A DNA stretch of 64,000 nucleotides, from contig JAUZRZ010000026.1 of the NCBI GenBank assembly GCA_030949945.1, positions 1 through 64,000 on the forward strand. Reading direction: 5' to 3'. The notes under the pieces are model-generated. The model made no database searches. It was not told the DNA's origin and was given only the letters and a program-made list of their open reading frames with translations. Every line of letters starts with the position of its first letter. Within the stretch, counting starts at the first letter, position 1. Both the position numbers and the translations under genes were made by a program. This DNA is from Sulfurimonas sp. (GTDB lineage Bacteria; Campylobacterota; Campylobacteria; Campylobacterales; Sulfurimonadaceae). Below are positions 37,717 through 51,155 of this stretch, in pieces.

Positions 37717-40133
37717 CTAAACTAAAACTTGTTTTAATACTTCCTCAATACGAGTAACACCCACAATTTCCATAGCATTTTGCACCTCTTTTGGAATATC
37801 ATCCAAATCACGTTCATAATTTTTTGCAGGAATTAAAACTTTTGTCATACCTGCTTTATGTGCAGCAATAAGTTTTTCTTTTAATCCACCAATAGGTAAT
37901 GCATCTCCACTTAATGAGACTTCACCAGTCATCGCAACCTCTGAGCGTACTTTTTTTCCACTCAATATAGAAGCTATTACACTGCACATAGCTAAACCTG
38001 CACTAGGTCCATCTTTTGGAGTAGCACCATCTGGAACATGTATATGCAAATCATAGCGCTTGTAGACTTCACTGGCATCCATTTTAACATCATCTTCTTT
38101 CTCGTTAAATGTCATAGGAATTTGATCTGGAGCTATTTTTAACTTTCTTGTATCAATAAGAGTTTTAACAACACTCATAGCAATTCTTGCTGATTCTTTC
38201 ATTACATCGCCAAGACTACCAGTGAGCTGCATACCACCCTTACCTTTAATTCTGATTGACTCTATTTTTAAAACATCTCCTCCAACTGCTGTCCATGCAA
38301 GACCATTTACAACACCAACAACAGGAACTTTATCAGTTATTTCAATTTCAAACACTGACTTATCAAAAAAATCTTTCAGGTTTTTGAGAGTAACAGATAC
38401 TTTTTTTGTACCTGAGTCTTGTAAAATACTTTGTGCTACCCTACGACTCATATCTGCTATACGACGTCTCAGGTTACGTACACCTGCTTCTCTTGTATAA
38501 CTATGGATAAGCTCTTTTAATGCTGCTTTAGAGATACTCAGTTCACTCTTTTTAAGACCATGTTTTTTAAGCTCTTGAGGGATAAGATAACGAGATGCTA
38601 TCTCATACTTTTCTTGTGGAGTATATGAGCTAACAGCTATAAACTCCATTCTATCACGAAGTGGGGCAGGAATACGACCAACATCATTTGCTGTTGCTAT
38701 AAAAATAGCATTTGACAGATCTAGGTTAAAGTTAAGATAGTAGTCTCTAAACTCACTATTTTGTTCAGGGTCTAGTATCTCTAAAAGTGCTGCTGTTGGG
38801 TCACCGTGAGTAGAACGAGAAACTTTATCTATCTCATCTAAAACGATAACAGGGTTCATTTTTTTAGCATCGATTAAACCTTGAGTAATTCGTCCAGGCA
38901 TTGCTCCCACATAAGTTCTACGATGACCACGAAGTTCATTTACATCTTCTAGTCCACCCAAAGCAATACGAATAAGAGGTCTTTTTAAAGCAGTAGCTAT
39001 CGAGTTAGCAAGTGAAGTTTTACCAACACCTGGAGGTCCACTAAAACAGAGGATTGCTCCTGCTGTCTTTTTATTACTTATGCCACGAAGTTCCAGTAAC
39101 TCTTTGACTGCAAAGTACTCAACTATACGTTTTTTGGTTTTTCAAGAGAAAAGTGATCTTTATCTAGTTGTGCTTTTACATTATCTATATGCAAAGATTT
39201 TTTAGAGAGATTTCCAAAAGGTATATCTAAAACCCAGTCAAGATAAGTTTGAGTCATAGAGGCATCTGAAGAGTCAGGGTGCATACGCGCAAAACGTTCA
39301 AGCTGTTTGTTGACTTCTTTATATGCATCTGCATTCATCTTTTTCTTTTTTGATTCTAGTTTAGCTCTGTACTCCTCTATCTCTTCATCACGAGAAGTGT
39401 CAGTTCCTAGCTCTTTTTGAATCTGTTTGAGTTGTTCTTTTAAAAAGTACTCTTTGTTTACTTTTTCTATATGAGTGTGTACTTTTGTGCGTATCTCTTT
39501 TTGAAGTTTATTCGCTTCTATTTCATCTATGAGATAATCTATAAGATCTAAAAATCTTTTTTCAGTATCTTGTTCAACAAAAAGTGCATAAGCTTGCTCT
39601 TTTTTTAGCTTCACAGTTGAGCAAATTAAGTCTATCACCCTATTGTGATCATGGTTTTCTTCTATAGTTCGAAGTAAATCAGGGGGGAAGTAACCACTCA
39701 CAGCAGAGAGTGTTCTAACCTTTTCACGGACTACTTCTAAAATAGCATCAATTTTAAGTGTGTGTACTTCTGTTGGCTCCATAATATCTACATGAGCTAT
39801 TAGTGGCTCAGTTGAGACTTCATTTATACTTTTTGCACGTGCAAGTCCTTGAAAAAGCACTTTAACTCGACCATCAGGAAGAGCAACTTTTCTCATAATA
39901 GACCCAACTACTCCAGCATCATAAAGAGAGTCATATTCTCTCTCTCCCTCTTTACCTGCTTTTGTTGTACAAACAATAACTAAAGAGTTATCTTCAATAG
40001 CTTTTGTTGCTGCGTTTATATTCTTCTCATCACTTAAAAAAAGTGGACTTATCATAAATGGGTATAAAAAAAGTTCATCCTCTGCTATCACTGGTAAATC
40101 TGCTGGAAATTCTCCATAATTACTTAATTTCAT
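37717..40133 (-). CDS. lon: ATP-dependent Lon protease, with one missing base
   Basis: Lon degrades misfolded and regulatory proteins in the cytoplasm. The N-terminal LON domain (DLPVIAEDELFLYPFMISPL) is followed by a coiled coil, the AAA module with Walker A SGPPGVGKTSLA and ELRGHRRTYVGAMPGRI, and the Ser-Lys protease domain with GPSAGLAM. The frame breaks at a 6-A run near 39130; a seventh A gives KPKKRIVEYFAVKELLEL. Corrected length is about 805 residues, normal for Lon. Confidence 0.96.
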
Positions 40134-41884: not shown

Positions 41885-42460
41885 TTATTTCCCACCCATT
41901 ATTGATGGAGAGTAATGCATATTACCAATTCTTTCGCTTGGACAGATACACTCTTTTTGACATGCTCTCATCTGTGCAGGCATATTAGCTTTTGTCCCTT
42001 TATGTACACCATGTTTCATAACACATTTCATAATACACGGTCTCATCCCTTTCCAGTATCTAAAAGCCTTATTCATTTTATCGTCATCACTGTTTGAATC
42101 ATCACTGTTTGAATCATCACTGTTTGAATCATCACTGTTTGAATCATCACTGTTTGAATCATCACTGTTTGAATCATCACTGTTTGAATCATCACTGTTT
42201 GAATCATCACTGTTTGAATCATCACTGTTTGAATCATCACTGTTTGAATCATCATCATACATCTTTTTCATGCATTTAGTGTACGGAATAGATTTCTTTC
42301 CGCACCCAAAATCATCTTCAGTTAACACAACTCCTAAATCAATTACTGAATCTGGAGTCACTACATCAATATCTGAATCAGAAATTGTATCTTTCAAGTT
42401 TGATGCACTTAACACTAATGTGATTGCAAATGTCATTGCTAATAAAACAATTTTTTTCAT
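41885..42460 (-). CDS. secreted acidic repeat protein with cysteine-rich tail
   Basis: The 191-residue product has a signal peptide (MKKIVLLAMTFAITLVLSAS) and a short region with GCGKKSIPYTKC. Eleven identical DSNSD pentapeptides follow, then a basic tail with six cysteines (RPCIMKCVMKH and CQKECICPSE among them). The repeat would be highly acidic and disordered and could bind calcium or act as a spacer. I know no family match. It is divergent from the large secreted-protein gene. Confidence 0.75.
   Translation of the reverse strand: MKKIVLLAMTFAITLVLSASNLKDTISDSDIDVVTPDSVIDLGVVLTEDDFGCGKKSIPYTKCMKKMYDDDSNSDDSNSDDSNSDDSNSDDSNSDDSNSDDSNSDDSNSDDSNSDDSNSDDSNSDDDKMNKAFRYWKGMRPCIMKCVMKHGVHKGTKANMPAQMRACQKECICPSERIGNMHYSPSIMGGK
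42091..42255 (-). repeat. eleven-copy 15-nt tandem repeat
   Basis: A perfect 15-base unit is repeated eleven times without divergence until the last bases of the final unit, encoding (DSNSD)11 in the gene at 41885-42460. Identity at the DNA level, including silent positions, points to recent expansion or ongoing slippage. All units are in frame, so copy changes alter only length. Confidence 0.97.
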
Positions 42461-42620: not shown

Positions 42621-45600
42621 ATGTATTTTCTTTTCCCACTTCTTATTATTTTTTCTTTTTCTTCTTCACTTGTATTATCCGCAGAAATAAAGTTTCAAGA
42701 TACACAGCCATATTCTACTGAAGTCTACGGTAACATAATAATGACAGGAAATACTATACTAGAGCTTGATAATTCTAAAAATAAAAATAATGAGAACTTT
42801 TTTATATCCGATGATAGCTTAGCATATGGACGATATATTACGGATGGACTCATTCAAGATGTCTGGACAGGTATATGGACAGATGTTTCAAGTTCAGAAG
42901 CAAATAACTTTGCATATATGCGATATATAGACATAGACAATAATGATACAACCTTTAATTCATCTTCATCAACATTAAGTATACCTGCAGGAAGTACTAT
43001 TATATTTGCTAGACTATATTGGTCAGGTATGCTCCACAACTATGCTGATGGTTCTTCACTAGAGGATGAGCGAGACACTTCTAAGTCACTAAGCCTAACA
43101 GTAGAAGGCACAACATACCCACTTGTTGTAACAGTAAATGGCTATTCCGATACAGAAGGTTGGACTGATATATATTCTGAAATAACTAATACAATCTCGG
43201 GAAACACCTTGCGGTACTCACGCTACAATGCTTATATAGATGTTACAGATAAATTTAGCACTTTAAACTTTAATGAAAGTGCAATCAATGTAACAGTTTC
43301 AAATCTACTTTCTATGGAGGGTTGGATACGTAACTATGGGAACTATGGAGCATGGAGCCTTGCTATTATATATAAAAATTCTAATGAAACTTATAAACAC
43401 ATTTCACTATATACTGGTTATGAAGAAGTTTATGACAATACTATATCTATAAATATTAACGGCTTTTTAACACCAAAAAGTTCTGATGTTATTTCTACAC
43501 TTTCTGTATTTTCAGTTGAGGGAGAGAAAACTACAGACTTTGGAGAAGACTATTTTAAGGCTGCAGATAACTCGGGGACACTATTCGATGTTACATCTAA
43601 CTCAATTTATCCCAATGCTAAAACGAATATTTTCGACTCAACTATTACAAATAATGAAACACAGACACCAAATATTTCTAATACTATGGGTATTGATATT
43701 GATACATTTAGTATTGGTGCTGATGGTAATACTTCTCATCCTCAAATTATACAAAACAATCAGACCCAAACAACTATAGAGCTATCTTCTGGTGGAGATG
43801 CTTATATGATTAATACAATAGCTCTCTCAACAGAACTCTATGTTCCTACTTTTTGTTATGACTACTCATACAAGCAAGATAGGAACTACTTTACTGAAGA
43901 AAATGATGGACAAAATGATCCGAGAATCGTAGGAACAGTCAGTACTGGTTCCCCTGTTGAAGTATCTATTTTCTTACGAAACCTTGTTGAGTCAGATGTA
44001 AATGTAACAGACATGAATATTAGCATATCAGATATAAACACAACTCAAGCAATCTATATAGATCCTTCAACACAATTAGCAAAACTTGGTAGTGTTGCAC
44101 CATACAATGTCACACCTGCAAGCAGTAGTGATAGTTATATAAGTAATGTAGAAATTGGAAATATAGTGTCACAAGATTACTTTTACTTTTATTATCAACT
44201 CAATCCTAAACAATCAAATTTAGATATGCCGATAAATTTTACCGCTTCATACAATATCAGTTCAGGTGATACAACTATACCATATATTTTAAAACTAGGA
44301 AAAGAGATTCCTCTTTGTGATAGTACTTCATTCACTTATACCCCTACAAATGGAATTTTTAATGTAGTACATAATAACTATTACAATGAAACTACCCAAT
44401 ATTATAATCTACCCACTCAAGTCATCCAAAGAGATGCTTCTTTTAAAGTTATCGCTTTAGATCCTAATAATTATGATGCACTTAAAAATCAATCAACAAT
44501 AGTAGCAGTTGAAGCAATTGATGTAGGTGGATTTCACAATACAGATGCATCTTGTTTTGAACAGTATAATTATATTACAAACAGGGAATGGGTAGTTTTT
44601 GAAAATAATGTAAGTAGTGTTGATTTTCAGCCTTCTAATGGATTTTTTACCGAAGTGAGGGAGAACAGTGCTTTTCGAGGTCTCCTTAAATCTTACAAAT
44701 GATGGTAATGATGCCCTGGTAAACCTTAGTGGTTCAGAAACAGATGGATATTCTATTGAGAATTATACAGAGTTAACAGAAGGTTTAGATAGTTGTGCTT
44801 TACCTGTAAATGTAGATGGAACTAATACAACTAATGTTAATACAGCATGTGGAGGTAATGGAAATATTATCTCAAAATCTCAACTCAAAGCATGTATGCA
44901 ATGCCTTTATAGCATTAATACTATATTTATCTGTTCACGTGACAACTTTTCAATACGACCAGAAGCATTTTCAATACAATTTAATGACCAAAACCAAACT
45001 ACTGGTACAAATATAACACAAATTGCAAATGATATTTCAGCAGTTAATTCACCAAGTCTTAAGACACTTAATCTATCTGCAGGATACAATTATAACCTAG
45101 TTGTATCAGCAACTACATATACTAATAATATTGGATCTATTGGATACACAAAAACATTAAACTTATATACTGGAGATGAATTTTACTACTCATGGGAACC
45201 TCGTTCAATTTCTACTTCAAGCTCATGTAATGACACAAGTGATAAAACACCTTCGAACTCTGTTCGCTTTATCAATGGAACACTAGATCAGAATAGTTCA
45301 GTCGATCAAGTGGGGGAGTACCGTTTATATCTTCGTGATGTAACATGGACAAGTGTAGATTATAATCCTTTTTATATGGGACACCATATTGGAAATCATT
45401 TTTTAGATGTAAATACTCCTGACTGCATAGCTAATTCGACAGAGGTGCAGGATTCCTTATCCCTTACGAATGCGCTCCCTTTAGTAGGATGTGAGATCAG
45501 CAGTTTACATACAAATACAAATACAAATATTAGCTATGTAGACTACAATATAACAATGCATCCCTATAAATTTGATACTTCAAGTTTAACAAAAAGTATA

Positions 45601-46632
45601 CTCACGGACTTTTCAACAAATTTTTCAAACAAACCATATCTCTATACTGCTAATGTATCCAATGACAGTAATATGTCTTACCATATTCAAGGTAATATTA
45701 CAGCACAAGGTCATAATAACCTGCAGTTAAGCAATTTTGTATCAGGATGCTATGCTCAATCTTTAAGTATAAGTATTACGACATCTGATCAAACACTCAA
45801 GGATATAAACAATGATGATATTATACTGCAGTACAAAGCGTATGAATATAATACTAGTACTGAACTAATAGCACAACGAGAGGGAAATGCCACAGCTACA
45901 ACTGAACTCAATACAAGCATACCAAGTACATCATTTTTAAAAAATGCTAATGGTTCTGTCTCCACTCTTCTTAATATCAACTATAATCGAAAAAATAATG
46001 TAGCTCATAATCCAAAAACTCTCTCATTTATAACTTATAATCTCACTAATCAAAATAAAAACAATACTTTTTATGCTGACTTGCAGATAGATAAACTTCC
46101 AAAAGCTGAAAAAGATTTAAATAGTTCTATCACTTTAAACTATTACTATGCAAGAACCCATGCTCCGAGACAAAGAATAGTTGGGAATAGTAGTGATAAT
46201 ATCTTTATATATTATGAAGTGTATTGTAGTGCTTCAGGATGTGATAAAAATCTTCTCCAAGATGCACTCGATTCAAATAGTACAGATGACCCTCGATGGT
46301 TTATAAATTCAAAGCACACCCCTTCACATGGCAGTGCTGGTCTTGTTACACAAAAAAGTGCTTCCAGTGTCCTAGCATCACCTCTCTCAAACACTTCCCC
46401 AGAACTCCTAACACTAACATATGATGAGTCAAAGGGTTACCCATATAAAGCAACTATGCTAAACACTCCTAATAAATGGTTAATCTATAATAAATATCAA
46501 CCTTCTGCTACTACAAACAGTTTTGAGGTAGAATTCACTAATATTAATTCTGCATGGGCTGGTGTGCATGAAACAAATACTACAACTAATATGAATTCTT
46601 CTAATAAAACTAACAGGAGAACTATGTGGTAA
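42621..46632 (+). CDS. very large secreted surface protein, with one extra base
   Basis: The signal peptide (FLFPLLIIFSFSSSLVLSAE) leads a roughly 1,336-residue Asn/Thr/Ser-rich protein with strand-rich domains. The frame breaks near 44680, where removing one T from GCTTTTCGAG joins VRENSAF to EVSLNLTNDGND. The first half has DUF11-like extracellular features (IFARLYWSGM, NYGAWSLAIIYKN, FLRNLVESDVNVTDMNISI). The second has paired cysteines and CSRDNFSIRPEAF, a motif I associate with MshQ-like pilus proteins. The gene overlaps the first prepilin gene, so it may be a pilus-tip or surface component. Confidence 0.82.
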
Positions 46633-47233
46633 AAAGAACTGCATTTACATATATTGAACTTATATTTTCCATTGTTATTATCGCTATTACAGTTGTCTCA
46701 CTTCCAATGATGAGTCGTGTCATCTCAGATGGTATATCTTCAAGTATTGTTCAAGAAGCTATCTTCGCCGCTGCAACTGAGCTCAATGAAGTTACAACAG
46801 CACACTGGGATGATAATTCTCTTGAACCAGGAGCATCTAACTCTTTCGCAAAAGTAATAGACTTTGGTTTATGTAATAACAATAGGCTGATGCCTGGTCA
46901 CATTGAGCAAACACTACACAGAAAATGTTTAGACAGTAATATAACAAACCCATCAGATGCTTCACCAATTACGACAGTTCAGTCTTTAAATGACTATGTT
47001 CATGCATCTTCTAATATTTTTATAAATGCGATAACAGATGAAACAGGGTACAAAGAAGAATATAACTCAGCCCTTACAGTCACAAGACCAGCTAACTTTG
47101 ATGGTAATAATACAAATATTAAAAAAATAACCATCACCATAATAAAAAAAATGATAATACTACTAAGCTCACTTCATTGAGTACATACAGTGCCAATATT
47201 GGTGAAGTTGATTTTTATAAGAAGGTGTACTAA
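46626..47233 (+). CDS. type IV pilin-like protein (PilV-like), with one missing base
   Basis: The prepilin signal KRTA-FTYIELIFSIVIIAIT has the glutamate at +5 and a hydrophobic helix, with alanine instead of glycine before the cleavage site. Start is GTG 46626, overlapping the previous stop. A run of eight A near 47150 lacks one base; adding it gives KKNDNTTKLTSLSTYSANIG and an end at 47233 that overlaps the next ATG (TAATG). Corrected length is about 202 residues. Two cysteines (LCNNN, RKCLD) could form a disulfide. Confidence 0.85.
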
Positions 47234-48198
47234 TGTTAAAACGCAATGCCTTTAGCATGATAGAACTCATTTTTGTCATAGTAATTATGGGAATTATTGG
47301 AAAGTTTGGAGTTGAGTTTTTAGCACAAGCATACAGAAGTTTTATCTTTTCTAGTGTTAACCATAACCTACAAGCAAGTAGTGGTGCTGCGGTCGAATTA
47401 ATCGCAGCAAGATTACAACACCGAATAAAAGATTCTGTTATTGCCAGAACAGGTCTACCGCCTGCAGTCCCTGTAGCAATAGGAAGTGTAAGTGGAAACA
47501 ACTATACAGTTTTAGAGTGGGTTGGAGTTGATTATGAAGGTTTTAAAGGTAACTCAAATTTAATACCATGTATGCCTAACTGGAGTGGTATATTAGATCT
47601 CAACCATCCAAATGCAAATAGTACAACTTTAATATCGCCTTCAACAGACACTTCTCAAGTCAATACAATGATATCAAATTTATCATATGGACATTCATCA
47701 ATTAGTAATGCTGCTATCTTTTTTATAGGTGCTAATAGTAATGTTCAAAGTGGATATGGCTGGGATGGAAATCTTACAGCCATAAACCTTCAGCAAGGTG
47801 CCATGCATCCCATTACAAATATTCCAGGAGTAGGTAACGAAGATAGATTTTCCCCAAGAATTGGTAACTTTACGGGGATAGATGTTTATGAATACTACCA
47901 ACTAGCATGGACTGCATATGCAATTGTCTATGAGCCTGGAGTTAATAATCTAGGTACCCTACGTTTATACTGGGATTATCAACCTTGGGAAGATGAAGAT
48001 GGTGATGGAAATGCAGATCAATTTAACACCCCTGGAATACAAGTAAAAAATGCTATTATTATGGAGAATGTCTCAACTTTTCAGTTTACCTCTGTTGGTG
48101 ATATAATAAAAATACAAGTTTGTACAAAGAGTACTATTATAGATGGAAATAATGATGGAAATGGGTACTCGCTATGCAAAGAAAAAACAGTATTTTAA
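47233..48198 (+). CDS. type IV pilin-like protein (PilW-like)
   Basis: The 321-residue protein has a prepilin N-terminus KRNA-FSMIELIFVIVIMGII with glutamate at +5, again with alanine at -1, and a large globular C-terminal domain. Size and position resemble PilW/GspJ-type minor pilins. A DEDGDGNADQF segment near residue 260 looks like a calcium-binding loop. It is coupled to both neighbours by overlaps (1 base upstream, 25 bases downstream). Confidence 0.86.
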   Translation: MLKRNAFSMIELIFVIVIMGIIGKFGVEFLAQAYRSFIFSSVNHNLQASSGAAVELIAARLQHRIKDSVIARTGLPPAVPVAIGSVSGNNYTVLEWVGVDYEGFKGNSNLIPCMPNWSGILDLNHPNANSTTLISPSTDTSQVNTMISNLSYGHSSISNAAIFFIGANSNVQSGYGWDGNLTAINLQQGAMHPITNIPGVGNEDRFSPRIGNFTGIDVYEYYQLAWTAYAIVYEPGVNNLGTLRLYWDYQPWEDEDGDGNADQFNTPGIQVKNAIIMENVSTFQFTSVGDIIKIQVCTKSTIIDGNNDGNGYSLCKEKTVF

Positions 48199-48635
48199 AT
48201 AGAAACCATAAGAGTGCTATCGCACTTATTATGGCAATGACAGTTATAGTAATTATAGCTACCATTATGGCACTTGCCTTGGCACTGACTTCTCAGACTA
48301 CAAAAAGGACTAATGACCTGTATCTTTATGAACAAGCATCCCTTTTAGCAAAAAGTGCAACTGAGTATGCACTTTTAAGTATCGCACAAGATGGTGCATG
48401 CACACATACAAATGACCTCAATTTTGTGCAAGATACTATTTATGATATAAATATTTCTTTACTTTATGTATATGAAACAACTACTAACCCATGTACAGTT
48501 GCTCAAACATACACAGAAGTGACTACACCAGAACAAAATGGTTCTATACTTATTGATGTAGCTGTAAGTGTTACTGATACATCTGTGGCTACAGAACCAA
48601 TCCGTTATTTTAGAAGAACTATTCAAAAACTTTAA
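48174..48635 (+). CDS. PilX-like minor pilin
   Basis: The 153-residue protein begins with a basic stretch and a long hydrophobic helix (SAIALIMAMTVIVIIATIMA) without the +5 glutamate, as in GspK/PilX-type components. The helix is followed by TSQTTKRTNDLYLYEQASLL, typical of this group, and a small domain with two cysteines (GACTHTN, NPCTVAQ). It is the last gene of the secreted-protein and prepilin cluster. Confidence 0.8.
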   Translation: MQRKNSILNRNHKSAIALIMAMTVIVIIATIMALALALTSQTTKRTNDLYLYEQASLLAKSATEYALLSIAQDGACTHTNDLNFVQDTIYDINISLLYVYETTTNPCTVAQTYTEVTTPEQNGSILIDVAVSVTDTSVATEPIRYFRRTIQKL

Positions 48636-48700: not shown

Positions 48701-49234
48701 ATGAATATTTCACTTACTGGAAGACATTTAGAACTAACAGATGCTATTAAAGAGCATATGACTACATCTATCGAAACACTAAATAAATTTAACTTAGAAA
48801 TCATCTCTGTTAATGTCGTTGCTTCCGCACAAACAAAAAAAGGTAAAGAGCACTCAGTTGTTGAGTTTATTATAAACCTAGCACACAAAAACTCAATAGT
48901 TATTAAACAAAATGATGATGATTTATATGCTGCTATAGATAAAGCAATTTCACGTGCTCAAAAAGCAATGCGTCGTATTCACGACAGAGAGAGTGATCAC
49001 CAAAAAGTTGGTCTCAATGAAATAAAATCTGATAATGTTGATCTAAAATCAGCGATAGAAGATATGGAAGATGAGATTGTGCCTGTAGAGTTAGAGCTTT
49101 ACAAACCTCGTGAAGTCGAAGATGTTTTAAATGACCTCAAAGAGAGTGGTAAAATGTTTGAGATTTTCATCGACCATGATGGTAAAACTCGTGTTCTTTA
49201 CAAAAGAAATGATGCAAAATTTGGTCTCTACTAG
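48701..49234 (+). CDS. hpf: long-form ribosome hibernation promoting factor
   Basis: The 177-residue protein has an N-terminal ribosome-binding domain (MNISLTGRHLELTDAIKEHM, basic helix RAQKAMRRIHDRE) and a C-terminal dimerisation domain (ELYKPREVEDVLNDLKESGK followed by MFEIFIDHDGKTRVLYKRND). The two-domain long form ties ribosomes into 100S dimers without RMF. The gene is monocistronic, with its own promoter, and its stop codon abuts repeat copy C. Confidence 0.95.
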   Translation: MNISLTGRHLELTDAIKEHMTTSIETLNKFNLEIISVNVVASAQTKKGKEHSVVEFIINLAHKNSIVIKQNDDDLYAAIDKAISRAQKAMRRIHDRESDHQKVGLNEIKSDNVDLKSAIEDMEDEIVPVELELYKPREVEDVLNDLKESGKMFEIFIDHDGKTRVLYKRNDAKFGLY

Positions 49235-49338: not shown

Positions 49339-51155
49339 ATACTATGAGTTAAAGAGAGACTCTCTTTAACTCTTTTTACAACTTCTAAATCCTCCGCAAA
49401 ATCAAACCACTTAAACTGATTTCCACTTTGATTTGCACCTTTGAGTAAATCTCCACTTTTTCTAAACTTCAAATCAAGATTTGCTATATCAAAACCACTT
49501 GTTGTTTGAACAAACTTATCTAAACGCTCAGATCTATTTTGATTAGTATATAAAAAACAGTACCCCTTAAGCCTGTTCTACTCACTCTACCTCTAAGTTG
49601 ATGTAAGGTTGAGAGACCTAGTCTCTCCGCCCCTACTATCACTACTGTAGTAAGCCTTGGGAGTGATATTCCCACTTCAACAACAGTTGTACTTATTAAA
49701 ACACTTTCCTTTTTCTCTAAAGTCAAGAAGTACTTGCTCCTTCTCTTTATCTTTTCCATGGGTCACATAGACATCATCAAAGTTCCTCTCCCAGTACCCA
49801 CGAGCCTCTTGAATACTCTGGTAAGCGATTGCTTCACTCTCCTCCACTAAGGGATAGACAATAAGAACTTGATTGTTTTTGGCTATTTCAGATTTTAGAT
49901 GCACTACTAGGTCTTGAAAATCACTTTTGTGAATTACTTTAGAGCTTATATCTTTTTTAAATGGTGTAGAAGTGATAAGACTTACATCAATATGTGCAGA
50001 CTCAATCATCGCTAGTGTTCTAGGAATTGGTGTAGCTGAGAACTGTAAAAAATGAGGTTTCTCTTCGCCACTACTTACAAGTTTTTCTAGCATATTTCTC
50101 TGCTTTGTACCAAATCTATGCTGCTCATCAACCATAACTAAAGCAGCTTTTGGCAAATCCCTATAAAGTACTGCATGTGTACCTATAATAAAGTCGTATT
50201 CATCTAAATCTACTTTTTTACTTTTATTAGTCACAAGCACTACTTTTAAATTTGGCAAAAATTTCACTGCTTCTTCATACAGCTGTTGTGCAAGTATAGT
50301 AGTTGGTGCCATCAAGATACTTTTTGACTCTCCAATCATATAAGCTGATGCTAAAATAACCATGGTCTTTCCTGAACCTACATCTCCTACTACCATTCGT
50401 TTAGAAGCAACATCTCTACTAAAGTCACTTTGTATATCTTTTATGGCATTTACTTGTTCTCTTGTAAGCTCAAAAGGCAGACTCTTCGCCCAACTTCCAT
50501 AATCACTCTCTACACTCACGATAGACTTAAAGTACCTGCGTTTGTTTCTCAAAACTTTCATATAGCAAAATAGTTCTGTAAACTTTAATGCCTCAATAGT
50601 TTTTAAGTCCAACTCATCTTGCTTTAATACCTCTTCATTCGCAAAGTGAACTGCTAGTAGAGTTTGTGCAACATCCTGTGGTAGCCCCTCCTCGACTAGA
50701 TTATCTAGACTCAAGTTTTTTTGTACAAAACGTGCCATCACATCTGTTCTGAGTCCACACTTATACTTAGGTGTAATTGAGCCAATAGTACTTATCTTTT
50801 TAGGCATACTCATACTACACTGCCCTAGTTTGCACTCTATCATTCCATAGTAGTACTCACGATTCCCTACACTAAACTGATGCATCATATATGCTTTAGG
50901 GCGGAATAAAACGGCATTAATCGTATGAGAAAAATTATGTACAAAAAATGTTATTTGAATGCTATTTTGAGCTCGAAAAACTGATTCGACTGTTGCATCT
51001 ATAAGTTGGGGTTTATGGGGTATGAGTTTATCATGAAGGACTAAATCTTCATAACTGTTTGGAATTATTAGTGCAAGCTCAGCAAAACTACTAATGCCTA
51101 GTTTCGCAAACTTTGTTACTATCTCTTTAGAGTACTTCTCTTGTGCCTTTTTCAT
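49332..51155 (-). CDS. recG: ATP-dependent DNA helicase RecG, with two indels
   Basis: RecG remodels stalled forks and branched DNA. Motifs include Walker [14 protein letters not shown], the DExH box as [24 protein letters not shown] and, after an extra base near 49697, [13 protein letters not shown] and [13 protein letters not shown] missing A near 49567 shifts the frame again before [18 protein letters not shown]. The corrected protein, about 607 residues, ends at 49332 inside repeat copy C. It is shorter than E. coli RecG at the N-terminal wedge region, as in other Campylobacterota. Confidence 0.94.

Follow-up and report, generated by a model that had tools for sequence, protein, structure and literature searches.

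A probable detached tip cassette of an MSHA/Cts-type type IV pilus, with a variable surface protein, in Sulfurimonas

A stretch of 64,000 nucleotides from a Sulfurimonas sp. assembly (GCA_030949945.1, contig JAUZRZ010000026.1, positions 1 to 64,000 of the forward strand; referred to here as the window, on the contig designated C28) contains four plus-strand genes that fill positions 42621-48635 and encode, in order, a large surface protein (BIG) and three prepilin-like proteins (pV, pW and pX). The gene content, its linkage across relatives, the domain matches, the machinery present in the genome and the pattern of variation between close relatives make it probable that BIG-pV-pW-pX is a detached cassette encoding the tip, with its variable adhesin, of a type IV pilus of the MSHA/Cts type. 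A pilus or pseudopilus tip combined with a giant surface protein in the position of MshQ or PilY1 had been suggested by a sequence-only reading of the same DNA, and this suggestion is supported by the DUF6701 domain found in BIG, by GspI- and GspK-like prepilins, by the conserved linkage and by paralogous cassettes located next to MSHA-type machines. The source assembly is fragmented (90 contigs, 83% complete, 5.6% contaminated).

Linkage and composition of the cassette

The order BIG, pV, pW, pX, followed by a gene for a ribosome hibernation promoting factor (HPF), is kept in all 40 same-genus loci selected by a BIG match. Selection by BIG match favors the presence of BIG, and hence a second search was anchored on pW. 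Of the 78 named loci recovered in this way, 69 extend far enough upstream to cover the position of BIG, and every one of them carries it, among them loci from Sulfurimonas, Sulfurovum, Nitratifractor and Sulfuricurvum; the nine loci without BIG begin within about 1.1 kb upstream of pW. A Sulfurospirillum contig carries pV, pW and pX and ends before BIG, and a pW profile match was obtained in 79 of 79 good same-genus genomes, weakly in three of them. Since gene order and overlaps are kept both in the BIG-selected loci and in the independently pW-anchored ones, they are not due to chance, and the expected linkage of the four genes in relatives was thus recovered. In the window, BIG and pV overlap by 7 nt (46626-46632) and pW and pX by 25 nt (48174-48198). 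The claim that all four genes are joined by overlaps therefore holds for these two junctions, but not for pV and pW as read here, because pV stops at 47180; in relatives, pV is intact and the two genes abut or overlap. The pW/pX overlap is double-coding, with the conserved pX start MQRKN lying over the conserved pW end CKEKT in a different frame.

The junction between BIG and pV also points to translational coupling. In 35 of 40 loci the pV start is closely preceded by AGGAG, which encodes the conserved Arg-Arg of the BIG tail; this residue pair is spelled AGGAGA in 34 of 35 genes, although AGG accounts for only 7% of Arg codons there. A pV Shine-Dalgarno site embedded in the coding end of BIG accounts for the conserved tail and supports coupling; it is a simpler explanation for the NRRxMW tail than a protein sorting signal, which was discarded. 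Such embedding, together with linkage to three prepilins across many genera, makes it highly improbable that BIG is a stand-alone surface or S-layer protein merely sharing an operon with prepilins, a possibility raised by its N-terminal likeness to Thermus and Priestia surface proteins and by BIG-like or DUF6701 genes without adjoining prepilins in four loci (L163, L164, L166, L170).

The start of BIG resembles a signal peptide, as judged by eye. A Pfam model of DUF6701 (PF20419) matches 4 of 38 BIG C-terminal halves (best 4e-12), and a direct genome search detects it at the position of BIG in six genomes of the genus, five of them above cut-off, as well as in another 24 genomes from the phylum sample. 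Profile comparison of the 38 BIG members thus identified DUF6701 in several relatives, but neither a PilY1 family match nor the C-terminal beta-propeller of PilY1 type. The papers searched contain no mention of DUF6701, a PDB sequence search with BIG returned a single match, weak and irrelevant, and a first scan of genome contigs with the BIG N-terminal part yielded no match. The structure model of the C-terminal half (pLDDT 80.5) is a chain of immunoglobulin (Ig)-like sandwiches. The N-terminal half is modeled with moderate confidence (mean pLDDT 67); within it, residues ~406-560 of the window BIG fold like adhesin Ig domains (TTHA1873, Z 10.7, rmsd 2.6, 131 aligned residues). BIG is therefore predicted to have an all-beta, Ig-like architecture resembling that of adhesins. 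When a BIG relative, rather than the window BIG, was used as query, its N-terminal ~450-500 residues matched surface proteins of Thermus, Deinococcus and Priestia (E ~1e-38) that are annotated as DUF11 or tandem-95 repeat proteins, but this similarity does not reach the C-terminal DUF6701 half.

The three prepilins can be assigned to classes tentatively. For pV, 22 of 33 members give weak hits to the GspI model, with E values of up to 0.1 (best 8e-4) that stay below cut-off, and PilV is matched by a single member. The N-terminal methylation motif PF07963 is found in 33 of 33 pW members (best 1.2e-5) and the window copy scores above the TIGR02532 cut-off; with no family closer than the general prepilin, pW is GspJ-like by exclusion. 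A weak GspK match is obtained for 25 of 30 pX members, and mature position 5 of pX is M, T, A or I, and never Glu, in all 87 scored sequences (94 in total). Since absence of Glu5 is the mark of a capping minor pilin (PMC10191384), the pX sequence suggests that it is probably such a cap. The alanine preceding the cleavage site in pV and pW, noted earlier as a peculiarity, is indeed present, but it is the rule in this lineage, occurring in 82 of 94 pV, 82 of 99 pW and all four pseudopilins found on the type II secretion system (T2SS) contigs of the genome. Given how common it is, its use as a sign of a special peptidase was ruled out.

Variation of the large protein between close relatives

Close relatives share 88-100% identity in their minor pilins, whereas most BIG DNA is unalignable, with the break at the start of BIG. 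G015 and G004 have 98-100% identity in the minor pilins, 70% in the C-terminal 620 residues of BIG and 47% in its N-terminal part; at the DNA level, identity is 84-100% until ~40 bases into the annotated BIG, then undetectable for ~2 kb, patchy at ~70% in the BIG core, ~75% in the C-terminal part and 99% from pV onward. The pair L053/L090 (pW 90%, pX 96% identical) shows 94% DNA identity upstream, 3.2 kb from the BIG start that cannot be aligned, then 70% and finally 90-95%. Over all comparisons, the N-terminal part is less conserved than the C-terminal part in 332 of 358 pairs, which are not independent, as the set holds duplicate genomes. In one locus (L133, 57-8585) tandem BIG genes have near-identical C-terminal halves and different N-terminal parts. 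Repeated or tandem BIG genes are also seen in L156, L163 and L172, with L163 holding three BIG genes without prepilins.

These alignments suggest that the BIG N-terminus is exchanged, or diverges very fast, between close relatives. PilY1 shows a constant C-terminus and a variable N-terminus within a minor-pilin operon (PMC13190605), and by analogy the pattern fits a tip adhesin. Selection by phage or host on an exposed protein would look the same. Like PilY1/PilC with FimU and PilV/W/X, the cassette combines a minor-pilin operon, a conserved C-terminus, a variable N-terminus and a probable cap pilin; unlike PilY1, BIG has predicted Ig-like sandwiches in its C-terminal half. The best-supported reading by analogy is that the cassette works like PilY1 and its minor pilins but is not PilY1, which would offer a second, non-PilY1 model of a tip adhesin in which the dock is fixed and the head varies.

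Assembly machinery and competing explanations

T2SSE, T2SSF, secretin and prepilin peptidase matches were not found on contig C28. The reported lack of an ATPase, platform protein or prepilin peptidase nearby is thus accurate, but the absence is only local, since the machine lies on other contigs. An operon on contig C62 encodes a 511-aa protein, PilO, a PilP/CtsR-like protein, an MshL secretin, an AAA ATPase, two small proteins (one TPR-like), a GspE/PilB-type ATPase and a platform protein. The secretin passes the MshL model TIGR02519 (267.9 versus a cut-off of 250.2 bits), the adjoining ATPase and platform protein match only the general GspE/PilB and GspF models, below equivalog cut-offs, and the AAA protein matches TIGR03015 (7.7e-11, below cut-off; no MshM-specific model was applied). 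The search for an assembly ATPase elsewhere in the genome therefore succeeded with the C62 enzyme, and PilT-family ATPases on C57 and C25 both score over cut-off. A single prepilin peptidase (A24) is found on C71, and a candidate major pilin of 151 aa lies with a 76-aa protein beside priA on C80 (L175, 1076-3742). Plasmid searches for MshL and for an MshQ sequence gave no match.

A link between cassette and machine is provided by four genomes (L168, L169, L173, L174) in which a paralogous BIG-pV-pW-pX lies directly upstream of MshI/PilO/PilP/MshL/MshM-like genes. These machine-joined cassettes belong to a second complete MSHA-type operon with one further prepilin, and in a pW tree they form one group, apart from the detached cassettes; two of the four carriers (G019 and G002; the same-genus loci L173 and L174) hold both kinds. 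In MSHA loci, the gene for the MshQ-type large protein is last in order, and MshD/O/P have sizes similar to pV/pW/pX. The cassette shares with the MshQ and MshD/O/P systems of Vibrio, Shewanella and Aeromonas a large secreted protein beside three minor prepilins, an MshL-class secretin and an AAA protein, but its large gene comes first, and the cassette is detached from the machine and lies beside HPF; the likeness is described here at the level of gene arrangement.

That the pilus tip holds minor pilins together with a non-pilin effector is established for type IVa pili (PMC10191384), loss of mshQ lowers surface MSHA (PMC7096442), and mshA, E, G, L and M are the mandatory genes of MSHA systems (PMC6668835). 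By extension, pV, pW and pX, as I-, J- and K-like subunits, would form a filament-starting complex that remains at the tip, with pX, devoid of Glu5, acting as cap. BIG would cross the inner membrane via its Sec signal and dock on the pX cap through its conserved C-terminal DUF6701 region, leaving its N-terminal Ig-like domains exposed as an adhesin; their exchange or very fast divergence would suit a surface protein that binds ligands. Processing of the prepilins would fall to the single peptidase on C71 and their assembly to the C62 machine (MshE-, MshG-, MshM-, PilO- and MshL-like), PilT-type ATPases would drive retraction, and the major pilin would be encoded elsewhere, for instance next to priA. 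The physical complex, its position at the tip, adhesion and the choice of serving machine are what we infer from these data.

Several observations weigh against this interpretation. The window's own BIG falls below the DUF6701 threshold, although its alignment to members that do match gives ~30% identity, and the fold search with its C-terminal half gives generic Ig-like matches only (best Z 9.3, adhesin FdeC). The I, J and K assignments of the prepilins are weak or by exclusion, and the T2SS contigs of the genome could in principle use the cassette prepilins. Of 79 good same-genus genomes, 72 contain both the cassette and MshL, but this co-occurrence is uninformative (Fisher p 0.18), since both are core in the genus, and such within-genus statistics were discarded as support; in four good genomes that carry the cassette, no strong match to MshL was obtained. 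The evidence consists of sequences and models.

Among the alternatives, the one that survives best, though we consider it unlikely, is that the cassette forms the tip of a DNA-uptake (competence) filament, with C62 as a relative of the Campylobacter Cts apparatus and BIG binding DNA or aiding outer-membrane crossing instead of gluing cells to surfaces. The C62 machine shares sequence similarity with Cts and follows the ctsRDPXEF order, with additions (operon order from PMC10893306), and a genus in the sample, g15, probably the C. jejuni group, keeps a reduced machine in that order. The candidate major pilin beside priA also resembles Cj0683 of C. jejuni, which lies next to priA and is needed for DNA uptake (PMC10046745). 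However, the reduced g15 loci lack the cassette, with no full-length pW match, as well as the 511-aa and PilO genes beside the machine, which argues that DNA uptake does not need the cassette; a g9 genome has both the full machine and a pW match. Fast N-terminal exchange is likewise not expected of a general DNA binder. The MshL model also exceeds its cut-off in g15, where the secretin is Cts-like, so that this model alone does not tell MSHA from Cts; judged from sequence, the two are one family of machines. On sequence evidence, the pilus may serve attachment, DNA uptake or both.

It is very unlikely that the prepilins are spare minor T2SS pseudopilins and BIG a secreted T2SS substrate. T2SS-like contigs are present (C23, C40, C82) and I, J and K subunits recognize T2SS substrates, but these contigs have their own prepilins, and both DUF6701 and the paralogous cassette point to an MSHA-type machine. 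The three contigs carry overlapping T2SS gene sets and C23 is full of frameshifts, so probably two strains are mixed in one bin.

If the pilus tip interpretation is extended to the phylum, a tentative picture emerges, which we regard as possible but rather doubtful. Campylobacterota would possess a widespread, undescribed pilus whose MSHA/Cts-type machine is capped by a detached tip cassette of a DUF6701 adhesin and I/J/K pilins. Allelic replacement would swap the outer domains of the adhesin and leave the remainder of the tip unchanged, and the competence apparatus of C. jejuni would descend from such a pilus in reduced form, after loss of the cassette. Type IV pili of Campylobacterota are poorly described, though these bacteria dominate many sulfidic habitats. 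The cassette supplies named targets for attachment (e.g. to elemental sulfur) and DNA uptake, and suggests an origin for the Campylobacter Cts apparatus. An mshL gene has been reported as up-regulated on elemental sulfur in Sulfurovum (PMC10045233).

Frameshifts and other features of the window

A signal-peptide protein of about 1,336 residues had been described for the window; the signal-like start stands, as does the length once the two frames of BIG are joined, but BIG is not one open frame in this assembly (Table 1). In relatives, BIG is a single frame of ~1,230-2,000 aa, and a G019 relative, 66% identical over the BIG N-terminal part, matches both frames end to end. pV is similarly cut, with 184 residues versus ~205; its conserved end (TYSANIGEVDFYKKVY) can be recovered from a different frame that runs to the start of pW, and the break lies near 47,130. 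Elsewhere in the window, Lon (37717-40133) is in two frames and RecG (49677-51155) is shortened, and the platform gene on C62 also looks broken. The BIG frameshift is probably an assembly error or a local mutation. Because Lon and RecG are broken in the same way as BIG and pV, assembly or sequencing errors are the simplest and probable cause of the broken genes. A programmed frameshift in BIG was ruled out by the single open frame of relatives and by the other broken genes.

Table 1. Positions of the cassette genes and associated features in the window.
Feature	Position	Strand	Remarks
BIG N-terminal part	42621..44702	+	693 aa in frame; signal-peptide-like start, variable surface domains, Ig-like domain at residues ~406-560
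Frameshift zone splitting BIG in the assembly	44668..44702	+	relatives open across the zone
BIG C-terminal part	44668..46632	+	654 aa; DUF6701-type region, predicted Ig-like sandwiches, conserved CSRDNFxIRPE and HYYGRTHAPRQR motifs
AGGAG, pV Shine-Dalgarno	46615..46619	+	within the last BIG codons (NRRTMW)
pV prepilin	46626..47180	+	GspI-like; Glu5 present, Ala at -1; frameshifted near end, conserved C-terminus in other frame to ~47233
pW long prepilin	47233..48198	+	GspJ-like by exclusion; Glu5 present, Ala at -1
pX prepilin-like protein	48174..48635	+	GspK-like; no Glu at mature position 5, probable capping subunit
Ribosome hibernation promoting factor (HPF/RaiA family)	48701..49234	+	constant downstream neighbor

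The HPF/RaiA gene probably stands outside the function of the cassette. Upstream of BIG, on the minus strand, positions 41885-42460 encode a secreted-looking protein of 191 aa with a long Asp-Ser-Asn repeat tract and Cys-containing ends, and a 58% identical relative occupies the same place in L029.

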